This document shows, one piece after another, positions 10,710 through 44,246 of a stretch of 64,000 nucleotides of DNA. The translations under genes were made by a program, and so were the position numbers. Positions within the stretch are counted from its first letter, which is position 1; every line of letters begins with the position of its first letter. The stretch spans positions 186,001 to 250,000 of the forward strand of contig CAMAPL010000001.1 in NCBI GenBank assembly GCA_945860165.1, in the 5' to 3' direction. The DNA comes from Rhizobium sp. Q54. GTDB lineage: Bacteria > Pseudomonadota > Alphaproteobacteria > Micropepsales > Micropepsaceae. The notes under the pieces are model-generated. The model was not told where the DNA came from, made no database searches, and saw only the letters and a program-made list of their open reading frames with translations.

Positions 10710-11594
10710 TTATCCCTTGTTGCCTTTTCGTGCGGTCTCCTGGCGCACGAAAAGGCTGGAAGTATCCCAACGCTTGCCCCCAAGGTTTTCGACTTCGGCG
10801 TAAAACTGATCCACCATCGCGGTCATGGGCAGGCTGACTTCCTGCTTGCGCCCCTCGTCCAGCCCGATCGCCAGATCCTTGCGCATCCATTCCACCGCAA
10901 AGCCGTGATTGTATTCATTGGCATTCATGGTCTTGTAGCGATTGTCCATCTGCCAACTCTGCGCCGCGCCCTTGGAAATCACTTCCACCACCGCTTCAAC
11001 ATCCAGTCCGGCGGCGCGCGCCAGACTGAAGGCTTCCGCCATACCCTGCACGATACCCGCGATGCATATCTGGTTGGCCATCTTGGTGAGCTGGCCCGAA
11101 CCCGCCGGACCCAGCCGCTTGGCAACCTTGGTATAGACCGCCATCACCGGCTCGGCGCGGGCAAAGGCCGCTTCGCTGCCGCCGCACATGATGCCCAGCT
11201 TGCCGTTGACCGCGCCCGCCTGACCGCCGGAGACCGGCGCATCAATAAAATCAAAACCACGCTTTTGCGCTTCGGCATCAAGCTCGCGCGCGATGCTGGC
11301 CGAGGCGGTGGTATGATCGACGAACAGCCCGCCCTTCTTCATCGCGCCAAACGCGCCATTCTCGCCCAGGGTCACCTGGCGCAGGTCGGAATCGCGGCCG
11401 ACGCAGCAGAACACGATGTCGACCTTGGACGCGGCTTCTGCCGGGGTCGGGGCGGTGTCGCCGCCATACTCGTCCTTCCACTGCTTCGCCTTAGCGGGAT
11501 TGCGGTTATAGACCACCACATCGTGGCCGCCCTTTTTCAGATGGCCCGCCATCGGATAGCCCATCACGCCCAGGCCAATGAATGCTGTTTTCAT
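10710..11594 (-). CDS. NAD-binding 3-hydroxyisobutyrate dehydrogenase family oxidoreductase
   Basis: A 294-residue beta-hydroxyacid dehydrogenase. The Rossmann motif GLGVMGYPMAGHL lies at 7-19, the substrate-site signature FIDAPVSGGQAGA about 115-127, and the catalytic-lysine region GPAGSGQLTKMANQI about 160-174. The substrate could be 3-hydroxyisobutyrate, which suits the HIBCH-like gene nearby, or a related tartronate/glyoxylate-type acid; sequence alone does not decide. I chose ATG 11594 because the Rossmann fold begins there (MKTAFIGLG); the longer frame adds an unlikely leader. It is probably co-transcribed with the TetR gene. Confidence 0.9.
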   Translation of the reverse strand: MKTAFIGLGVMGYPMAGHLKKGGHDVVVYNRNPAKAKQWKDEYGGDTAPTPAEAASKVDIVFCCVGRDSDLRQVTLGENGAFGAMKKGGLFVDHTTASASIARELDAEAQKRGFDFIDAPVSGGQAGAVNGKLGIMCGGSEAAFARAEPVMAVYTKVAKRLGPAGSGQLTKMANQICIAGIVQGMAEAFSLARAAGLDVEAVVEVISKGAAQSWQMDNRYKTMNANEYNHGFAVEWMRKDLAIGLDEGRKQEVSLPMTAMVDQFYAEVENLGGKRWDTSSLFVRQETARKGNKG

Positions 11595-11768
11595 ATTAGT
11601 GCACCATCTTAGAGTTTGCGCCGGCTGCAACAGACGGCCGCGTCAAATGCAGGCAGGGAAGAATCAGAACCATGAAAAGGAATCGTTGGAGCAGGCCTGC
11701 GCTTGCGCGCGGCATTCTATGAAAGAATTTCGGTTTGCCAACCCTATGAGGCCCTTGATCGCAGGCAT

Positions 11769-12218
11769 CTATTCGCCCGCCGCCACGATTCTGTCCACGG
11801 GTTCGGTGGTCAGGCGAGCCTTCATGTACAAGAGCGCGTGGGTCACGAGCGCAATAGTCTCTTCATCCAGACCGACAGTGAGTTCGCCCAGCAGATCGTT
11901 CTTGTAGCGTTGGATCTCCGCCAGGATCGGCTGCGCCGCCGGCAGCAGGTGCAAACGGCGAATACGCCGGTCGGCGGGATCGAGACGGCGCTCCAGCAAG
12001 CCGCGCGCTTCCAGCCGGTCGACCAGCCGCCCCACCGTGATGGGTTCGACTTCGCAGATGCCGGCCATTTCGTTCTGGGTCATGCCGGGCTGGCGCGACA
12101 GCCGCGCCAGGATCACGCCCTGGGCGCGGGTCATACCATAGGTGCGCGCCCAGCGATCGAAGCGGGTGCGCATCAGCCGGGCGACGTCATACAGCTCAAC
12201 GAGCAGTTCGGGTTTCAT
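11769..12218 (-). CDS. MarR family transcriptional regulator
   Basis: A 149-residue winged-helix protein of ordinary MarR length. The DNA-binding core is GMTQNEMAGICEVEPITVGR, then LVDRLEARGLLERRLDPADR, with the wing residues D-x-R-D-R equivalent (DPADRR). The N-terminus VARLMRTRFDRWARTYGMTR is typical. It stands alone between the dehydrogenase gene and the pst terminator. No effector can be inferred. The 11631-11768 gap downstream carries no recognisable feature. Confidence 0.9.
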   Translation of the reverse strand: MKPELLVELYDVARLMRTRFDRWARTYGMTRAQGVILARLSRQPGMTQNEMAGICEVEPITVGRLVDRLEARGLLERRLDPADRRIRRLHLLPAAQPILAEIQRYKNDLLGELTVGLDEETIALVTHALLYMKARLTTEPVDRIVAAGE

Positions 12219-12304
12219 ACCGAAAACATAAGCAGCGTTATAATAACGCGCAAGAACATAAGGCAGCTTTTCCGGCAGGCCCCCCTATGCATTTTGGCGC
12301 GGAA

Positions 12305-12341
12305 TCAAAGAAAAAGGCCGGCGCAGTTGCCCGCGCCGGCC
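12305..12341 (-). terminator. Intrinsic terminator of pstS
   Basis: On the minus strand a perfect 9-bp stem GGCCGGCGC / GCGCCGGCC with an 8-nt loop is followed immediately by TTTTTCTTT. It lies about 20 bp beyond the pstS stop codon, a textbook rho-independent terminator. Confidence 0.92.
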
Positions 12342-12362
12342 TGAGTTAGGGGAGTAAGAAGC

Positions 12363-13394
12363 TTACATTCCGGAGCCCTGGATACCCTTCCAGCTGGCGG
12401 TGATCGCCTGGATGGCTGTATCGGGGAGCGGGACATAGTCGAGGCCCAGCGCCATCTGATCGCCCTTCTCGAAGCTCCATTGGAAGAACTTCAGGGTGTC
12501 AGCGGTGGCGGCCTGGTCCGGCGGATTCTTGTAGACCAGGATGTAGGTCGTGGCGGTGATCGGCCAGCTCTGCGCGCCAGCCTGATTGGTCAGGATCACG
12601 TAGAAGCTGTTCTTGGCGGCTGCGGCCCAGTCGGCACCCGTAGCGGCGGCGCGGAACGAGTCGACGGTGGGAGCGACGGTTTGGCCGGCGCGGTTGACCA
12701 GCTTCACATGCGCCAGCCGGTTCTGCTTGGCATAGGCATATTCGACATAACCGATCGAACCGCCGATCTGGGCCACATTGCCCGCCACGCCTTCATTGCC
12801 CTTGGCGCCGATGCCGGTGGGCCAGTCAATCGCCGTATCGGCGCCGATATCAGCCTTCCACTCGGCGCTCACCTGACCCAAATAAGTCGCCAGGATGAAG
12901 GTCGTGCCCGAACCGTCCGAACGATGCACCACGGTGATGGCGCGGTTGGGAAGATTGACACCCGGATTGAGCTTGACGATGGCCGGATCGTTCCAGCGCG
13001 CGACTTTGCCCATAAAAATGTTGGCCAAGGTTGGACCGTCCAGGGTGAGCTGGCCCGGGGCGATGCCCGGTACGTTGATCACCGGCACCACGCCGCCGAT
13101 CACGGTGGGGAACTGCGCAAGACCAAAAGCATTTAGCTCCTTGGGCGTCAGCGGCTTATCGGTGGCGCCGAACGCAACCGTCTTGGCCTTGATCTGGGCT
13201 ATACCGCCGCCCGAACCGATGGACTGGTAGTTCAGGCTGGTGCCCGACTGGCCCCTATAGACCGCCGCCCACTTGGCGTAGATCGGGAAGGGAAAGCTGG
13301 CGCCAGCGCCGGTGATTTCCGCAGCGAAGGTCGCGGTGGCGACCAGCGCCAGACCAGCGACGGCGCCCATCAGGGCCTTGTAGTTCATTTTCAT
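12363..13394 (-). CDS. pstS: Phosphate ABC transporter substrate-binding protein PstS
   Basis: A 343-residue periplasmic protein. The signal peptide (KALMGAVAGLALVATATFA) is cleaved before AEITGAGASFPFPIYAKWA. Phosphate-contact motifs include GAGASFP, IGSGGGIAQI, FGATDKPL and HRSDGSGTT. The start at 13394 has GGAGAAG about 8 nt upstream. It lies just downstream of the porin gene in the same direction and behind the same Pho box, and ends at a strong terminator. The pstCAB genes are not in this window, so this pstS forms a separate unit with the porin. Confidence 0.96.
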   Translation of the reverse strand: MKMNYKALMGAVAGLALVATATFAAEITGAGASFPFPIYAKWAAVYRGQSGTSLNYQSIGSGGGIAQIKAKTVAFGATDKPLTPKELNAFGLAQFPTVIGGVVPVINVPGIAPGQLTLDGPTLANIFMGKVARWNDPAIVKLNPGVNLPNRAITVVHRSDGSGTTFILATYLGQVSAEWKADIGADTAIDWPTGIGAKGNEGVAGNVAQIGGSIGYVEYAYAKQNRLAHVKLVNRAGQTVAPTVDSFRAAATGADWAAAAKNSFYVILTNQAGAQSWPITATTYILVYKNPPDQAATADTLKFFQWSFEKGDQMALGLDYVPLPDTAIQAITASWKGIQGSGM

Positions 13395-13410
13395 CGTGTC
13401 TTCTCCATTT

Positions 13411-13426
13411 GGGAGCAAGCGCTCCC
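13411..13426 (-). promoter_or_regulatory. Intercistronic hairpin between porin and pstS
   Basis: GGGAGC and GCTCCC flank a 4-nt loop in the 40-bp gap. No U-run follows, so it may stabilise one message part or attenuate read-through rather than end transcription. Its position just before the pstS ribosome-binding site suggests differential expression of the two genes; this is inference. Confidence 0.4.
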
Positions 13427-13434
13427 GGTTCAGA

Positions 13435-14139
13435 TTAGTTCGCGAATTGCAGACGCACGCCCAGGATGTTGAGGTCCTGGCTCGCGTTGGTTGAGAGCAG
13501 GGCGGTACCCTTGTCGACCGAGACGAAGCTGTTATGAACCTGCAACTTCACATTGCGGTTCATGTACCAGTTGACGCCGATGTCGAAGATGCGCTGCCGG
13601 CCGCCCACGATGCCAGCCAACTGGGTCGTGGTCTGAACCTGGCGGGGATTCCAGTCCAGATCCATGTCGCTGTAACGCGCCACCAGTTCCCAGGCCCCCC
13701 AGCTGTCGCCGCGCAGCGAGAAGGGACGGGACGGAACCGGCTGCTGGAAGCCGCCGATTTCATTGTTGAGCGCGGCGACCGTGTAGGGCTTGGTTTCGCC
13801 GGTGATGATCCACGAGGCGTGCAAATACCAGCCGCCAAAGGTGGGATTATCGGCAATGGCGCGGAAGGGCTGGCCGGCGCAAACGCCACCGTTGAAGGTG
13901 GCGGTGGCAGTGCCGCAGCGGCGGTCCACGGTGAACTGGGTCAATTCGCCGCCCATGTAGAAGTTCTGGTAATTGCCGGCCAGGTCGAATGACAGCAGAT
14001 CGCCGCTCTGGGCATTGATGGCGCCCGTGGAGATCAGGCGGGTGCCGTCAACGCGGATATGCGGGCGATCCTGAAGGTTCATGGTCGCCGAGCCGCCGCC
14101 GGCATCGGTGCCGCTGTTGAAAGCATGCGCGACGCTCAT
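13435..14139 (-). pseudogene. C-terminal part of phosphate-selective porin, separated by frameshift
   Basis: This frame (234 codons from a chance ATG) continues the beta-barrel of the porin at 14136-15050. Upstream of its ATG the same frame reads RLGNRVWSDGPSNLAWG before MSVAHAFNSG. It ends LNILGVRLQFAN, a typical outer-membrane C-terminal strand with terminal aromatic/Asn. Sequence such as GELTQFTVDRR, WELVARYSDMDLD and GVNWYMNRNVKLQVH is characteristic of OprO/OprP-like porins. It would not be translated on its own unless the frameshift is a sequencing error. Confidence 0.8.
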
Positions 14140-15050
14140 GCCCCAGGCCAGGTTGGACGGGCCGTCGGACCAGACGCGGTTGCCCAGACGGAAAAAAGCT
14201 GGGACTGCTCATCGCCGCCATTGCCGTGACCGAGAGCGGAATGGGACTTGCCGCCAGTGAAGTAGACGGTGGCGTTGACCGCGTCCCCTGGCCAGAACAC
14301 ATCGGCCTTGGCCCAGCCGATTTCGGCGCCGCGGCGCGCATCGTTGCCGCCGAAAATGTCGGCGCCGATATTCACGGTTTCCGGACGTTCCAGGAACATC
14401 AGATTGCCCGACGACGTGGTGCCTTCAAGCTGGAAGGCCGGCTCGATGATGCCCAGGCTGAAATGCCAGTTGGGAATGCCGATGTAATGGACAACGGCCT
14501 TGCTGAGTTCGAGACCTTCAACGCTGCTGCCGCCGACATTAATGCGGAATTCATAGGCGAAGTCGTTATAGGCCTTGCCTTCGATACCCAGATAGGCGCG
14601 GCGCATGCCCATGCCACTGGCCAGGTCGCGCGGCCCCGCAAACGAGGCAGGCTTCTGGTCCTGCGAGAAGCCGGCAAAGTCGGTCTGGAAGCGGGTGCGC
14701 AGCGACATGGTGAAACGGCCGTCGCCGGTCTGGAAGGTCGGGCGGCCATTGTCGTACAGCAGGTTGGCGTAGCTATACTGCTGTTCCAGGGTGGAAAGGC
14801 GGGTGCGGTCGGACTGAATGCGCTCATCACGGGCGACCAGTGCGTCTTCCAGCGCCTGCACGCGCATCGCAAGTTCGCTTGTGGAGGAATAGTTGGGTGA
14901 TGCCTGCGGCGTGATCTGCGCCAGCACCAAGTTTGGACGCACGACCTGCTCGGCCTGCGTGTCTTTCTTATTTTCGTCGGCGAAAGCCCCCGTGGCTGCC
15001 ATTGCGGAAACTGCAACGCCTGTCATCAGGGCTAGTTTCCCAATTCTCAC
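14136..15050 (-). pseudogene. N-terminal part of OprO/OprP-type phosphate-selective porin (frameshifted)
   Basis: Begins with a GTG at 15050 preceded by AGGAG at 9 nt, then a signal peptide (ALMTGVAVSAMAATGAFA), a short coiled coil (MRVQALEDALVARDERIQSD) and porin strands such as MGMRRAYLGIEGKAYNDFAYEFRIN. After GDEQSQLF the frame shifts by one base next to a run of six A (14192-14197 on the plus strand) and ends after SVWATASGP... The continuation is in the next frame. The intact protein would be about 535 residues. A true mutation or a homopolymer sequencing error are both possible. Confidence 0.85.
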
Positions 15051-15101
15051 TATCTATAACTCCTAAGTAATTCAAAGCCTTTACATTATTATTAAGTTTC
15101 A

Positions 15102-15119
15102 GTGACGGTTACGTGACAG
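15102..15119 (-). promoter_or_regulatory. Pho box (PhoB binding site) upstream of porin-pstS
   Basis: On the minus strand CTGTCACGTAACCGTCAC contains two 7-bp direct repeats, CTGTCAC and CCGTCAC, spaced by 4 bp, matching the known Pho-box layout (CTGTCAT-N4-CTGTCAT, 11-bp period). An AT-rich TAATAATAATG element follows about 8 bp downstream as a likely -10 region, and the porin start is about 50 bp away. It fits phosphate-starvation control of the porin and pstS. Confidence 0.8.
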
Positions 15120-15281
15120 TCTCCGCGGGGCGCAGCGAAATCCGCGCTCCGGACAAAGTACGCTGTGGACAGCTTCAAACGTATCTCAACAGACACAGGT
15201 CAGCCTCCCCTGCGCGTGCGTCAGCAAACAGGCGGAAGATCTGACCGTAGCAGTGCTTGAGATGCGAAGGCCGGAGGGGGA

Positions 15282-15767
15282 TTAGGAGCGCGCAAGCGCG
15301 CCGTATTTGCCCTGGAAATAGACCAGCGGCGCGCCCGCACCGTCATGCTGCGCGAAACGCAGTACGCGCCCAATCAGGATCGCATGATCGCCCGCATCCT
15401 GCACGCTTTCACGGGTGCATTCGAAGATCGCAAGTGCGTCCGCCAGCGCGGGTGGACCCAACTCGGTGGGAAACAGCGCGATGCCGTCCAAATTATGCTC
15501 GCCCGCGCCGGCCAGCCGCGACGACACGGCCTGGTGGTTGGAGGCGAGGATGGAAACGGTGAAACCCGTGGCATTGGCGAAGGCGGGATAGCGCCGCGAG
15601 CGGCGGTCTATGCACCACAGCACCAGCGGCGGGGCGAGAGAGACCGAAGTGAAGGAATTGACGGTAATCCCGATATGGGACGCTTCGTCAGAGGATGCGG
15701 TCATCACGGCGATGCCGGTGGGAAAACAGCCCAGCGCATTGCGAAAACCGCGGATATCAAAGGTCAT
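15282..15767 (-). CDS. Flavin reductase domain protein (FMN-binding)
   Basis: A 161-residue protein of the flavin reductase-like, FMN-binding split-barrel family. It begins FRNALGCFPTGIAVMTA and contains ITVNSFTSVSLAPPLVLWCI and a later HNLDGIALF, all family landmarks. Such proteins provide reduced FMN/FAD to two-component monooxygenases such as HpaC-type systems. No partner oxygenase is adjacent, so the substrate system is unknown. The gap to the porin promoter (15121-15281) shows no further gene. Confidence 0.9.
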   Translation of the reverse strand: MTFDIRGFRNALGCFPTGIAVMTASSDEASHIGITVNSFTSVSLAPPLVLWCIDRRSRRYPAFANATGFTVSILASNHQAVSSRLAGAGEHNLDGIALFPTELGPPALADALAIFECTRESVQDAGDHAILIGRVLRFAQHDGAGAPLVYFQGKYGALARS

Positions 15768-15904
15768 AGCCGTCCCAATCAGCCCCGCTTCACACTCGGT
15801 TAAGAGGGAGTATGCATGATCGTCAAAGGTTAGGCGACCCGGCGAAAAGACCGCAAGCCAAAACCGGGTGATTAAGTCATTGATCTTTGGCAGGTGGGCG
15901 TATC

Positions 15905-16801
15905 ATGGCTGGCAATAACGCGGTTGTTATCAAGCGCCTTAAGAAGGGCGGGCATAGCGGCCATCACGGCGGCGCCTGGAAAGTCGCCTATGCGGACTTC
16001 GTCACCGCGATGATGGCCTTCTTCCTGCTGATGTGGCTGATCAACACCACCACCCCCGAACAGAAACGCGGCATAGCTGACTATTTTGCGCCCCAGTCCA
16101 TCGCCCAGACCATGTCCGGTTCGGGCGGCGTCCTCGGCGGCAAAGTTATGGGCGAAGATAGCGCCCATGCTGGCGGCGCCCAGTCGGTGATGCAGAAACA
16201 GTCTCCGCCCGCGCACTCCTCCACCCAGAAGTCGCTGGCCGCCGGCGCCACCGAAGGCGGCGCCAGTTCCAGCACCGACAGCAATTCGCAGGCCCGTTCG
16301 AGGCAGGATGGCGAATTCGCCCATGCCGTCGAAGCCATTCGCCAGGCGATACAGGACAATCCCGACATCGCCAATCTTTCGCATCAGGTGATCCTGGAAA
16401 ACACGCCCCAGGGCCTGCGCATTCAGCTGGTGGATCAGGATGGCCGCCCGATGTTCCAGCAGGGCTCCAACCAGCCCATGCCCTATGCCCGCAAGTTGCT
16501 GGCAGCGGTGGGCGGCATCGTCTCGCAGCTTCCCAACCGGGTTTCGATCAGCGGCCATACCGGCGGCAATGACGTGAATGCCACCGGCGGCGCCTGGGAA
16601 TTGTCCGCTTGCCGCGCCAACCAGGTACGCGCCGTGCTGCAAGCGGGCGGGCTTGGCTCGGACCGCATCTATGAAGTGGCGGGCAAGGCCGGCTCCGAAC
16701 CGTTGCTGCCCGAAGACCCCAATGCCAGCGCCAACCGGCGTCTTTCGATCCTGCTGGTGCGCGAATCCCCGCCCGTACCCACAAATACCGGGCTGAATTA
16801 A
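15905..16801 (+). CDS. motB: Flagellar motor stator protein MotB
   Basis: A 298-residue protein. The N-terminus GGHSGHHGGAWKVAYADFVT leads into a single membrane helix MMAFFLLMWLINTTTPEQKRG. The proton-binding Asp is D31. A plug/linker of low complexity (80-140) precedes an OmpA-like peptidoglycan-binding domain (about 165-290) ending NRRLSILLVRE. The usual GHTD motif reads GHTGG (217-221), so the conserved Asp is missing. No motA lies adjacent. The start is supported by AGGTGG 7 nt upstream of ATG 15905. Confidence 0.92.
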   Translation: MAGNNAVVIKRLKKGGHSGHHGGAWKVAYADFVTAMMAFFLLMWLINTTTPEQKRGIADYFAPQSIAQTMSGSGGVLGGKVMGEDSAHAGGAQSVMQKQSPPAHSSTQKSLAAGATEGGASSSTDSNSQARSRQDGEFAHAVEAIRQAIQDNPDIANLSHQVILENTPQGLRIQLVDQDGRPMFQQGSNQPMPYARKLLAAVGGIVSQLPNRVSISGHTGGNDVNATGGAWELSACRANQVRAVLQAGGLGSDRIYEVAGKAGSEPLLPEDPNASANRRLSILLVRESPPVPTNTGLN

Positions 16802-16900
16802 CTTCTTTCCGTCAAAAAACCGCCCTGCCCGCGAATAAAAGCTGCGCTCCGCCGCGCCGCTTGTCATAATTGAGTCGGGAGCGGGCAGGTTTTTGGGTAC

Positions 16901-17623
16901 GTGACAGACCAGCGCAACACACGCATACCGCAGTTTTTCCTGACGCCCGGCGGGCCATGCCCATATTTGCCCGGCCGCACAGAACGCAAGGTCTTTGCCC
17001 GGCTGGGCGGCAACCTGGCCCAGCCTTTGTCCGAAGCCCTCACCCATTCCGGTTTTCGCCGCAGCCAGTCCATCGCCTATCGCCCGGCCTGCGAAGGCTG
17101 TTCGGCCTGTGTCTCGGTGCGCATCAAGGCCAGCCAGTTTGAGTCCAGCCGCAGCCAGAAACGCATCCTGAAGCGCGGCGACGATCTGGTGCGCGCCGAA
17201 GTGACGGCGGAAGCCACCCGCGAACAGTTTGCCCTGCTGCGGACCTATCTGGATTCGCGCCATCCCGGCGGCGGCATGAGCGACATGGGCCTGTTCGACT
17301 ATGTCGCCATGGTCGAGGAAACGCCGGTGGACACCCGCATTGTCGAATATCGCGGCGCCGGCGGCGCCCTGATCGCCTGCGCCCTGACCGACCGGCTGAA
17401 GGACGGGCTGAGCATGGTCTACAGCTTCTTCCATCCCGGCGAGGACGCACGCAGCCTGGGCACCTTCATGATCCTGGATCATGTCCGCGCAGCGCAGGCG
17501 CAGAATTTGCCCTATGTCTATCTCGGCTACTGGGTGCGCGGCAGCGAGACGATGGACTACAAAATCCGTTTCACGCCGCTGGAGGCCCTGGGCCAAAATG
17601 GCTGGGAACCGCTGACCGTCTGA
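16901..17623 (+). CDS. bpt: Aspartate/glutamate leucyltransferase (arginyltransferase family) Bpt
   Basis: A 240-residue protein of the bacterial leucyl/arginyl-tRNA--protein transferase family, which adds Leu to N-terminal Asp or Glu and feeds the N-degron pathway. Family landmarks are [13 protein letters not shown] (20-32), [20 protein letters not shown] (51-70), the late [20 protein letters not shown] and the C-terminal GWEPL. The start codon is GTG at 16901, which gives the family N-terminus ([15 protein letters not shown]); the ribosome-binding site is weak. The 99-bp gap to motB holds nothing recognised. Confidence 0.94.
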
Positions 17624-17677
17624 AACCCGGCACAGCGAACACGCAGACCTCTTTTTGCCTGCCTCTGGCGCCTCAGA

Positions 17678-19195
17678 TCAGCGCTTGCTGACGTCGGCCA
17701 CCTGTGTGGGAACCGCTTCGTTGCGCACCTGTTTGTCGGGCTGAGGCTTGGGCTTGGGCACCTCCAGGGGATCATCAAAAATGGCGCCCCGCCCGCGCTT
17801 CAGGATCGCGGCCTCAATATCCTTGTCATAGTGCGGCCGGTCCAGGGTTGTCAGGAAGAAATCCTTGCTCGGCAGGCCATCGACATTGCGTTCCAGGGCC
17901 GGGAAGGCGCCTTCCGAGGTGCCCGGCGGTACGCCCTGCACCGTCTTGGTCAGGGTGGACCTGATGGTGGCCGCGCGAATGGTAAGGAACGAATTCTTGC
18001 GCCGCTCATCCGCCGCTATGACCGTAACGCCAACCGGCTTTTCGGGATCGACCACATAAGCCGGCATGGCGGTGATGCGGTAGGTGGAGGAAATGCCCAT
18101 CTTCTCGCCGGTCCTGGGATCGGGCGTGCCGTCGGCATTGCGCTTCAAGGCATAATAAAGCGCGACATGGTCTTCATGCTCGCGGATGCCCTGCTGTCCA
18201 CCGTCCTGGGAGAAAGTATTCTCAGTATATAATTCGCGCCAGTTGCGATAGCCGCCGATCAGGCCCTTGGCATTGCCATCCGCGCCGATCTCCAAACGGA
18301 TCTTGCCCTTGCGGATATCGACGTCGCCGACATGGTTGTACCACCAGGCGATGCGGGGTGCATGTAGTTCGGCGACCTGTTCGGTCTCGACCACCCCATT
18401 GCGTATCTTGGCCTTCAGCTTGGTGTACTGCTCGCTTTTGAGGATGCGATAGGAATAGTCGGTTGCCACGTCGCCGCGCGCATTCTTGGTGATCTTGTCC
18501 GGCGAATAGCCGATCTCGACGGTGGCATTGTCGTCATTCATCGGATCCTTGCTGCCGGAGACGCGAATAACCATGGTGTAAAGCCCACCCTGCATCTTGT
18601 CATTGGCGCGAAGATGCAACGTGGCATTGCCATTGCCGCGCCAGGGCGCGTCACAACCCCAGGCACGGTAGAGGGCGTGATCGATACCCCTTTCGCCGTC
18701 CTCAGCAACAAAACCACCAGTGTTGGAATCGTTGTCCAGATTAAACCCGGTGGCGATCTTGCTGGTCACTTCGGGCTGGCCGGGATCTTCCGCCGCCCAG
18801 GGGTTCACATAGGTCTCGATGCCGCGTTTCCAGGCGCGATAGGTGATGGCGCGATTCCAGATTTGAAATCTTGTCTCAACCGGTGCCCGGACCTGGTCCA
18901 GCCCCGGCGGCCTGGCGATGCTTGCGATCTCATACTGACTGCGGAATGGCTGCTTCAGCGCCGCTTCGGTATTCTTGTCATTGGCAAAATGAACGCTGTT
19001 GCCATGACGGCAATCCGAGCCCGGCTCGATATCTCCGGCGCGTTCAAATCCCGCGCGGCCGCCATAGCGGAAGGCATACTCATAAGTGGCGACGACATAT
19101 CCGCGCGACCAGGGAGCCGCAGTCGCGGGCTGTATCATGGCGGCGAGTGCCACAGTGGCCACGGAGCAAAGCAGAACGCGTTTTTGCAGGATCAT
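17678..19195 (-). CDS. Exported protein of unknown function (505 aa)
   Basis: I do not recognise this family. A strong GGAGG lies 5 nt before the ATG at 19195, and the N-terminus MILQKRVLLCSVATVALAAM followed by IQPATA-A is a clear Sec signal peptide. The mature protein is polar, rich in Asn/Asp and aromatic residues (NPWAAEDPGQPEV, GFNLDNDSNTGG, WWYNHVGDVDIRKGKIRLEI), with no membrane segments. It resembles a beta-rich secreted domain. The final 40 residues are Pro/Lys-rich (VPKPKPQPDKQ). Only one extra Cys pair (SDCRHG and WGCDAP) is obvious. It stands alone, without operon context. Confidence 0.8.
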   Translation of the reverse strand: MILQKRVLLCSVATVALAAMIQPATAAPWSRGYVVATYEYAFRYGGRAGFERAGDIEPGSDCRHGNSVHFANDKNTEAALKQPFRSQYEIASIARPPGLDQVRAPVETRFQIWNRAITYRAWKRGIETYVNPWAAEDPGQPEVTSKIATGFNLDNDSNTGGFVAEDGERGIDHALYRAWGCDAPWRGNGNATLHLRANDKMQGGLYTMVIRVSGSKDPMNDDNATVEIGYSPDKITKNARGDVATDYSYRILKSEQYTKLKAKIRNGVVETEQVAELHAPRIAWWYNHVGDVDIRKGKIRLEIGADGNAKGLIGGYRNWRELYTENTFSQDGGQQGIREHEDHVALYYALKRNADGTPDPRTGEKMGISSTYRITAMPAYVVDPEKPVGVTVIAADERRKNSFLTIRAATIRSTLTKTVQGVPPGTSEGAFPALERNVDGLPSKDFFLTTLDRPHYDKDIEAAILKRGRGAIFDDPLEVPKPKPQPDKQVRNEAVPTQVADVSKR

Positions 19196-19375
19196 GGACG
19201 CCTCCTCAGAGCCGGACTTGTGCCGACCTTGGTTGAAACATCCGGCAATTCGCCGCGGCTGACAAGGATGGACCTGCTTTTCTAATCGCCCGGTTCCCTG
19301 GCGCCGTCTCCTTAGCCAGCGCCACAGTGCGCCAAACACCTAACGGTTTCAGCGGGATAGATTCATGTCGGGCAG

Positions 19376-19567
19376 TTAAAGATCGGCCAGGCGGATCCAG
19401 CCTGCCACCGCCGCCGAGACCAGCAGTCCGGCGCCCATAATGACCGGACCGTCAAAACCCAACTCCCGAGTCACCGCCATCCAGAGCGCCATGCTGGCGA
19501 TGCCCACCACGATTCCGCCGATGAGACTGGCCTTCCCAGGCGTTATCCGGGCGCGCGATGCACTCAT
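19376..19567 (-). CDS. Small two-helix membrane protein
   Basis: A 63-residue protein starting MSASRARITPGKASLIGGIV and ending WIRLADL. Two hydrophobic segments are visible (SLIGGIVVGIASMALWMAV and VIMGAGLLVSAAVAGWI). Its ATG overlaps the stop codon of the fatty acid hydroxylase gene in an ATGA arrangement, implying translational coupling and perhaps a shared role in the membrane. The family is not recognised. Confidence 0.65.
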   Translation of the reverse strand: MSASRARITPGKASLIGGIVVGIASMALWMAVTRELGFDGPVIMGAGLLVSAAVAGWIRLADL

Positions 19568-20328
19568 GGCGATGCGGGCCCCGCCTGCCCGGCCGACGCG
19601 TCGCCGCGCGCCCGCTTCAGGTCGCGGCGCACCGCGCTGGTGTCGTAGCCGTTGAAGATGTGTTTCAGCAGGCCGCACCGCAGATCAGAGGTGCCAAAGA
19701 ACCAGTCCGCGACGGGATAGGTCAGGTTGAAGTTGCGCTCCATCATGATCGCCGGATTGTGATGGGCGATATGGTGGCGGCGAATGGAATTCACCAGCGG
19801 GATGCGCCGCACCAGGCTGTCATTCTTCACATGGCAGCAGTAGTGGAACAGCTCGTAATTCAGATAAAGCCCGACATTGGTGATCATGAGTAGCCAGCCG
19901 GCATTGGACAGTCCCACAAGGCTCAGGATGACGGCCGGGACCAGCGAAATGACCATGAACGCCACCAGCGCATAGGGCGGGAAGAACACGATGCGGAAGT
20001 CGCGTGTATTGTCGAACGTCGGTTCCACATCGGTGAAGAATTCGTGATGCGCCAGCGTGTGGCGCTTGTAGATGCCCATCAGGCCCTTGACCGGGCGGTG
20101 CATGACAAAGCGGTGGAGCCACCATTCAAACACGTTGGACACGCCCAATGCCAAGGGGATCACCAGCCACTCATACCAAGCCGGCGCCGAGACCTGACGC
20201 AAGAAATACCAGATCGCAGCACCACCCAGCACGGCGATAAGCGCCACATGCATCCAGCCGGCATAGGCCGGAGCGATGAGCGTGCGGAAGTCGGCGCGGA
20301 ACGCGGCCTGGCGTGGCGGCATGGTCAT
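19564..20328 (-). CDS. Fatty acid hydroxylase superfamily membrane protein
   Basis: A 254-residue integral membrane di-iron protein. His clusters are visible: HRFVMH and KRHTLAHHEFF (about 72-97), HYCCH near 168 and RRHHIAHH near 184. These match the 8-His pattern of sterol desaturase/fatty acid hydroxylases. Four hydrophobic segments surround them. The likely reaction is O2-dependent lipid hydroxylation; the substrate is unknown. The start at 20328 has AGGGG 7 nt upstream. It is coupled to the 63-residue membrane protein and divergent from the TRIC-family gene. Confidence 0.88.
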   Translation of the reverse strand: MTMPPRQAAFRADFRTLIAPAYAGWMHVALIAVLGGAAIWYFLRQVSAPAWYEWLVIPLALGVSNVFEWWLHRFVMHRPVKGLMGIYKRHTLAHHEFFTDVEPTFDNTRDFRIVFFPPYALVAFMVISLVPAVILSLVGLSNAGWLLMITNVGLYLNYELFHYCCHVKNDSLVRRIPLVNSIRRHHIAHHNPAIMMERNFNLTYPVADWFFGTSDLRCGLLKHIFNGYDTSAVRRDLKRARGDASAGQAGPASP

Positions 20329-43439: not shown

Positions 43440-44061
43440 CTATTGCACCTGCATAACGGCGCGCAGCCAGCCGCGATGCAGACGATCGCGTTCGGCCTTT
43501 TTCATCGACGGGCGAAAACGCCGGTCCAGCGCCCAGCGGGCGGCGATATCGCGCTGATTGCGGAAAAATCCCGCCCCCAATCCCGCCAGATAGGCCGCGC
43601 CCAGCGCGGTGGTTTCCGTCACCACGGGCCGATCCACCGGCAAACCGGTCAGGTCGGCCAGCCGCTGGCAGAACCAGTCATTGGCCACCATGCCGCCGTC
43701 CACCTTCAATGTGCGCAGACGCGAAAGCCCCGCCGCCACCATGTCGCGGCGCATCGCATATGGCATTGTGCAGCGGCGCGCCGGTCTTGCGATCCCAGAT
43801 CACCGAGGTTTCGCGCTGGTTGCTGATGCCGTTCGCCGCAACATCGCCGGCCTCCACGCCCTTCAGAACGGCGCGATCGCAGGCCAGAACCGCCTGCCAG
43901 ATCTCACTCGGATCATGCTCCACCCAGCCATTGTCGGGATAAATCTGGCGCAGGCCCACGGCATGACTGCGGACAGGCCGTCCCTGGGCGTCGAACAGGA
44001 TGGCGCGGGTCGAGGTGGTCCCCTGATCTAGCGCTAGAATAAAAAAATTTGTGCTGTTCAT
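43440..44061 (-). pseudogene. glpK: Glycerol kinase gene with large internal deletion
   Basis: The N-terminal 98 or so residues are clear GlpK ([53 protein letters not shown]). The sequence then jumps, with a frame change near 43760, to the GlpK C-terminus ([40 protein letters not shown]). About 300 codons, including most of the ATPase fold, are absent compared with the usual 500-residue enzyme. It is non-functional. The neighbouring TetR gene is also broken. Confidence 0.88.
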
Positions 44062-44246
44062 GGGGGAAAAGAGCACACCAGTTCGCCCCCCGGGTGCAAG
44101 ACTTGATCAGCTTTCAACGGGCGCCCTGATAAAAAAACACGGAATGTGCTACGTTCGTACGTTGGCGCCACTCCTCCCCTTGCCGCACTTCGTGCGAATG
44201 AGTAGGCGGACATGTGTGTGCGGAAGGAACATGCTAGAGTGCCCCC

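Follow-up and report, generated by a model that had tools for sequence, protein, structure and literature searches.

We find that a porin gene and pstS probably form a two-gene transcription unit activated by PhoB, a reading to which we assign a probability of about 0.85. The window, by which we mean the whole 64-kb stretch of DNA that was analyzed, lies on contig C1 of a 2.48-Mb alphaproteobacterial assembly in 42 contigs. Sequence, synteny, and promoter conservation all support a PhoB-type box in front of a porin-pstS unit located apart from pstCAB; PhoB binding, induction, and a single mRNA for porin and pstS are what we infer from them. A preliminary description of this locus had proposed a compact phosphate-scavenging operon. 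The box, the porin-pstS order, the terminator, and the synteny support that proposal in part, but the porin is frameshifted in the assembly. The features discussed below are collected in Table 1.

Table 1. Coordinates of features in the window.
Feature	Position	Strand	Basis or detail
Pho box core, two 7-nt half-sites 11 bp apart	15102..15119	-	CTGTCAC-N4-CCGTCAC; top scorer in the window with the relatives' matrix
Two weaker half-sites, same 11-bp register	15080..15097	-	ACTTAAT 15097-15091, ATGTAAA 15086-15080
Porin N-terminal part, 304-aa ORF, GTG start, AGGAG at 15064-15060	14136..15050	-	Porin_O_P, PF07396 E 6.7e-12
T6 run, place of the porin frame break	14192..14197	-	Three-frame translation; alignment with three open relatives
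Porin C-terminal part, 234-aa ORF, different frame	13435..14139	-	Porin_O_P, PF07396 E 7.9e-21
G+C hairpin between porin and pstS, GGGAGC-4 nt-GCTCCC	13411..13426	-	Counts across relatives' gaps
pstS, periplasmic phosphate-binding protein, 343 aa, ATG 13394, GGAG just 5'	12363..13394	-	NF008171, TIGR00975
Intrinsic terminator, 12-bp stem, 4-nt loop, T tail	12311..12342	-	Folding

The Pho box and its conservation

A review describes the Pho box as two 11-nt direct repeats with seven well-conserved positions each (PMC4415409). The minus-strand letters at 15119-15102 are CTGTCACGTAACCGTCAC; the two half-sites are separated by GTAA and stand in an 11-bp direct-repeat register with a TGTCA-type core, reading CTGTCAC and CCGTCAC where the review has CTGTCAT. 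Compared with the E. coli consensus CTGTCATN4CTGTCAT, the site carries three mismatches. Because matches of this quality occur four times in the 64-kb window, against a mean of 3.30 in shuffled sequences, consensus matching alone is insufficient to identify a Pho box, and we rejected the E. coli consensus as the sole judge of the site. Once the seventh base of a half-site may be either C or T, the site scores 13/14; when the 320-bp upstream region was dinucleotide-shuffled 200 times, no shuffle reached this score. Using an 18-mer matrix built from 19 homologous porin promoters of relatives, with the window left out, the site ranks first on both strands of the 64 kb at 26.8 bits (next site, 10.7), and with a 29-mer matrix it scores 33.4 bits versus 9.9 for the next best in the window; these scores owe something to descent and selection, since the 19 promoters are homologs that we took from the better-scoring among 36 loci. 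The relatives' matrix confirms the near-consensus PhoB-type site with 11-bp periodicity that had been described previously, and on the strength of sequence comparison we regard the predicted Pho box as real.

The position of the box is shared by most relatives. In 27 of the 36 loci with upstream DNA, an 18-mer matching at least 11 of 14 positions lies no more than 320 bp from the porin start as aligned (the other nine fall below that score), and the promoter site has a shuffle p value of at most 0.02 in 24. Many of these boxes consist of three or four half-sites, often with a CTGTAG ending, unlike the two-repeat box of the review (PMC4415409). The third and fourth half-sites are weak in the window, whereas they are stronger in many relatives. 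A putative -10-like hexamer, AATAAT, seen by eye at 15090-15085, overlaps these weaker half-sites 11 nt past the core box. The distance from the box to the porin GTG is 51 nt, and the window is without approximately 30 bp of leader common to the relatives. A generic sigma-70 scan of positions 13000-20000 found no promoter, and an Rfam search of 11000-17000 returned no match.

We also considered whether the box could be a chance match or a site for another OmpR-family regulator. The chance-level agreement with the E. coli consensus would allow this, as would the 21 places in the genome matched by the PhoB model, of which one is over the cut-off. However, the conserved position among relatives, the rank of the box as the top-scoring site across the window, and the phosphate genes lying downstream of it make this explanation very improbable.

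The porin-pstS unit and its counterparts

The pstS product exceeds the cut-offs of both PstS models (NF008171, 409.8 bits against 339; TIGR00975, 374.6 against 205) and matches solved PstS structures with a best E value of 1.7e-119. The gene starts 40 nt after the end of the porin. As previously proposed, a strong terminator follows pstS: its 12-bp stem is followed by T's, and the 81-nt stretch has a folding energy of -29.8 kcal/mol (z -3.41). A terminator scan of 13000-20000 detected none, the terminator 3' of pstS falling outside that range. In the gaps between porin and pstS, a stem of five or more G-C pairs occurs in 11 of 31 cases compared with 0.16 expected from mononucleotide shuffles (10 of 30 when L122, where the scored stretch extends beyond the pstS start, is omitted), a count to which common descent among close relatives adds and which uses a threshold chosen after a first look at the data. 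The sequence of the stem varies among relatives, about a third of which have the hairpin. As a guess, it may act by stabilizing or cutting the mRNA, with more PstS than porin as the outcome.

Relatives of PstS were found in 24 of 41 genomes searched, 23 of them labeled as the same genus as the window, and relatives of the first piece of the porin in 21 of 41, 19 of them so labeled. Of 20 stretches taken from relatives, mostly around pstS, 18 show pstS together with the preceding gene, which is a porin of this type in nine and not in the other nine; because half of these pstS-picked relatives are without the porin, the pair, though common, is not general. A porin-led search of named genomes produced 74 loci, and we examined the closest 37 (31-100% identity to the query), among which are the contigs carrying each of the nine pairs from the pstS-led sample. 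When loci are sampled by the porin in this manner, pstS lies within about 100 nt 3' of it in 30 of 33 testable loci. Four other loci stop at a contig edge, two have pstS at 0.3 and 1.4 kb followed by pstCAB, and one pairs the porin with sulfate genes. Among the 30 porin-pstS loci, a flavin-reductase gene is located upstream in 25, and pstCAB falls within the fetched stretch in two (L121 and L122); phoU-pstCAB is directly 5' of the porin in L125. Rhizomicrobium electricum DSM 21034 (L127), placed in Micropepsaceae in the NCBI taxonomy, is among the relatives at this locus. Judged by gene order, the porin-pstS layout is ordinary among relatives.

Several loci contain additional genes. Tandem pstS copies are seen in two relatives (L087:6059-8219 and L088:6421-8658), and in L087 and L092 a Pfam search assigned no family to the ORFs that precede the pstS copies, leaving a Porin_O_P identity unsupported. 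The interval between flavin reductase and porin holds TonB-dependent receptors at L104:4111-6549, L108:4233-6752, and L117:4441-6639, and a CLC-type channel at L106:4917-6752. At L110:4289-6766 the same interval contains genes for an HTH regulator, a low-molecular-weight-phosphatase-family protein, and an SBF-family transporter, a set that by eye looks like an arsenic operon. A 547-aa protein with no Pfam family adjoins the porin-pstS unit at L080:4499-6142 and is matched in eight of 37 relatives' loci, a count that takes in its own contig.

A search for pstS in the genome gave one match. Contig C2 carries the pstC-pstA-pstB genes and contig C5 the phoR-phoU-phoB genes, so the separation of pstCAB from porin-pstS noted in the preliminary description holds as a location on different contigs (C2 and C1) of a draft assembly. 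PhoB is present (TIGR02154, 351.9 bits; cut-off, 296.2), and the best model for the PhoR-like kinase, TIGR02966, scores 312.8 bits, below its cut-off of 334.2. Control stretches from the same genome (L014, L015, and L102) have maxima of 11.7 bits for the 18-mer, 15.2 for the 29-mer, and 7.1 for the 40-mer. A site before phoU, at 15.1 bits (18-mer) and 20.7 bits (29-mer), exceeds both corresponding maxima, whereas a site 91 bp before pstC scores 10.0, 15.4, and 16.4 bits with the 18-mer, 29-mer, and 40-mer, respectively. The 15.2-bit control 29-mer, at L015:8743, falls within a sulfatase-like ORF and presumably matches by chance. Because its score is about equal to that of the pstC site, only the 40-mer (16.4 versus 7.1) supports the latter, and we rejected it as a clear Pho box. 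By these scores the candidate phoU site looks good and the candidate pstC site is weak. The porin-pstS, pstCAB, and phoR-phoU-phoB loci may be co-regulated in trans.

Parts of this arrangement have precedents. In Caulobacter crescentus, pstS is reported to be separate from pstCAB-phoUB, and both are activated by PhoB (PMC11208175). This alphaproteobacterium therefore resembles the window's genome in having pstS apart from pstCAB, and the separation is not distinctive. In the window's genome, however, pstS follows a Porin_O_P gene (we compared C. crescentus by pst/pho layout only), and phoR-phoU-phoB and pstCAB are on different contigs, unlike pstCAB-phoUB of C. crescentus. The porin belongs to the same Pfam family as OprP and OprO of Pseudomonas aeruginosa, and a profile of nine relatives' porins matched, at E values of at most 0.01 among solved structures, only OprP (2o4v, E 6.1e-16) and OprO (4rjw and 4rjx). 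The likeness is distant, consisting of two short matching stretches, and the window's porin differs in being paired with pstS in the genome. Because the split pstS of Caulobacter, the 11-nt-repeat box, and the OprP/OprO match precede it, the unit is of an already known kind. A literature search of open-licence PMC papers found no report of this porin-pstS pairing, and the word "porin" is absent from the main text of a paper on Xanthomonas PhoX (PMC5439949).

The frame break in the porin gene

Both pieces of the porin score above the PF07396 gathering cut-off of 20.9 bits (N-terminal piece, 45.8; C-terminal piece, 75.2), and the GTG aligns with the ATG start in three relatives. In this assembly the frame is broken at 14197-14192 and there is no single intact ORF; the 304-aa ORF ends soon after the T6 run and overlaps the 234-aa ORF by 4 nt. 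The earlier designation of the gene as OprO/P-like thus stands insofar as each piece carries the Porin_O_P domain, but it does not stand as the description of an ordinary porin, since the frame is split, and this genome should not be credited with an intact outer-membrane channel. Three aligned relatives (L110, L111, and L113) are open across the break and do not have the T6 run. More broadly, 36 of the 37 relatives' porins extend to the break site (L134 stops at a contig end before it), and all 36 are open there. The porin of L138 is interrupted too, but past this site and at an NN gap in the assembly, and we do not count it as a second natural frameshift. In comparisons with three relatives, pN/pS is 0.20-0.28 for the N-terminal piece and 0.23-0.31 for the C-terminal piece, and these similarly low values mean that the break is either very recent or an artifact.

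Three explanations divide the frameshift question among themselves, none of which competes with the Pho-box reading. We give even odds to a sequencing or assembly error that conceals an intact gene, as would fit a break on a short homopolymer in a 42-contig draft with purifying selection on either side of it; the sole other interruption among the 37 relatives' porins falls at an assembly gap, whereas the compared neighbors pstS, flavin reductase, motB, ate, and marR are without frameshifts. Somewhat short of even odds, though a serious contender, is a genuine frameshift that has made the porin a young pseudogene in this strain and left the promoter serving pstS only. Several observations favor this reading: pstS retains its own ribosome-binding site, there is a second Porin_O_P gene, and the window contains another broken gene, a glpK-like FGGY kinase with N- and C-terminal pieces but no middle. 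The T6 run is a plausible place for a genuine break, but a single-base homopolymer error in a draft assembly accounts for it equally well; the low pN/pS of both halves would require a real break to be very recent, and the second porin, being in a sulfate operon, may be no replacement. We find it scarcely credible that both ORFs are functional, with a full or two-piece porin arising through a change of frame at the T6 run or through re-initiation at ATGA (14139-14136). Although the 4-nt overlap at ATGA and the coincidence of the run with the break would suit such a mechanism, neither the run nor the break occurs in the three aligned relatives, and the ATG is a plain methionine codon found also in L110 and L113. 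We know of no split porins in the Porin_O_P family.

The FGGY-kinase remnant lies at 43440-44076 on the minus strand, with its two pieces in different frames; the N-terminal piece corresponds to profile positions 2-97 of 245 and the C-terminal piece to 148-196 of 198.

Proposed mechanism and anion partners

In the proposed mechanism, phosphate scarcity would lead PhoR to phosphorylate PhoB, which would bind the tandem box and recruit RNA polymerase, with transcription starting shortly ahead of the porin gene. The resulting mRNA would be laid out for an OprO/OprP-type anion porin, allowing phosphate passage across the outer membrane, followed by PstS, which would capture periplasmic phosphate and pass it to PstCAB made from a separate locus. 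Transcription would end at the hairpin 3' of pstS. Because the porin frame is broken as assembled, only PstS, with its own ribosome-binding site, would be expected as a full-length product.

The porin of the window may be selective for phosphate, a suggestion for which the neighboring pstS is the one basis. The second Porin_O_P gene of the genome, at L014:3743-9348 on contig C2, is flanked by genes for an Rrf2-type regulator and for a sulfate-binding protein, CysT, and CysW, after which comes an ABC ATPase gene, and its locus has no Pho box (the best 18-mer in 12 kb scores 6.2 bits). In nine of 19 short loci from relatives the porin is accompanied by a sulfate-binding-protein match, as it is in 16 of the 46 loci L131-L176, several of which are from Verrucomicrobia. 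Because such genes accompany many Porin_O_P loci, the label "phosphate-selective" in the name of the family is not to be read at face value. We tentatively suggest, while considering it rather doubtful, that a Porin_O_P protein, here and outside this group, is a partner dedicated to the adjacent periplasmic binding protein, whether PstS with a Pho box or a sulfate-binding protein with Rrf2, and that the intergenic hairpin tunes the ratio of porin to PstS. If this partner reading is true, "phosphate-selective" mislabels many Porin_O_P proteins and the neighboring gene predicts the anion; the G+C hairpin, whose sequence drifts, would have its effect on the ratio in some members of the group. The sulfate-linked paralogue offers a simple way to test what Porin_O_P porins select.

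For this assembly, the porin should not carry an annotation as intact. More generally, the locus documents a phosphate-uptake system whose genes are divided among several loci, in a group represented mostly by uncultured genomes, and the Pho box pattern common to these relatives could be used to map the regulon of the group.
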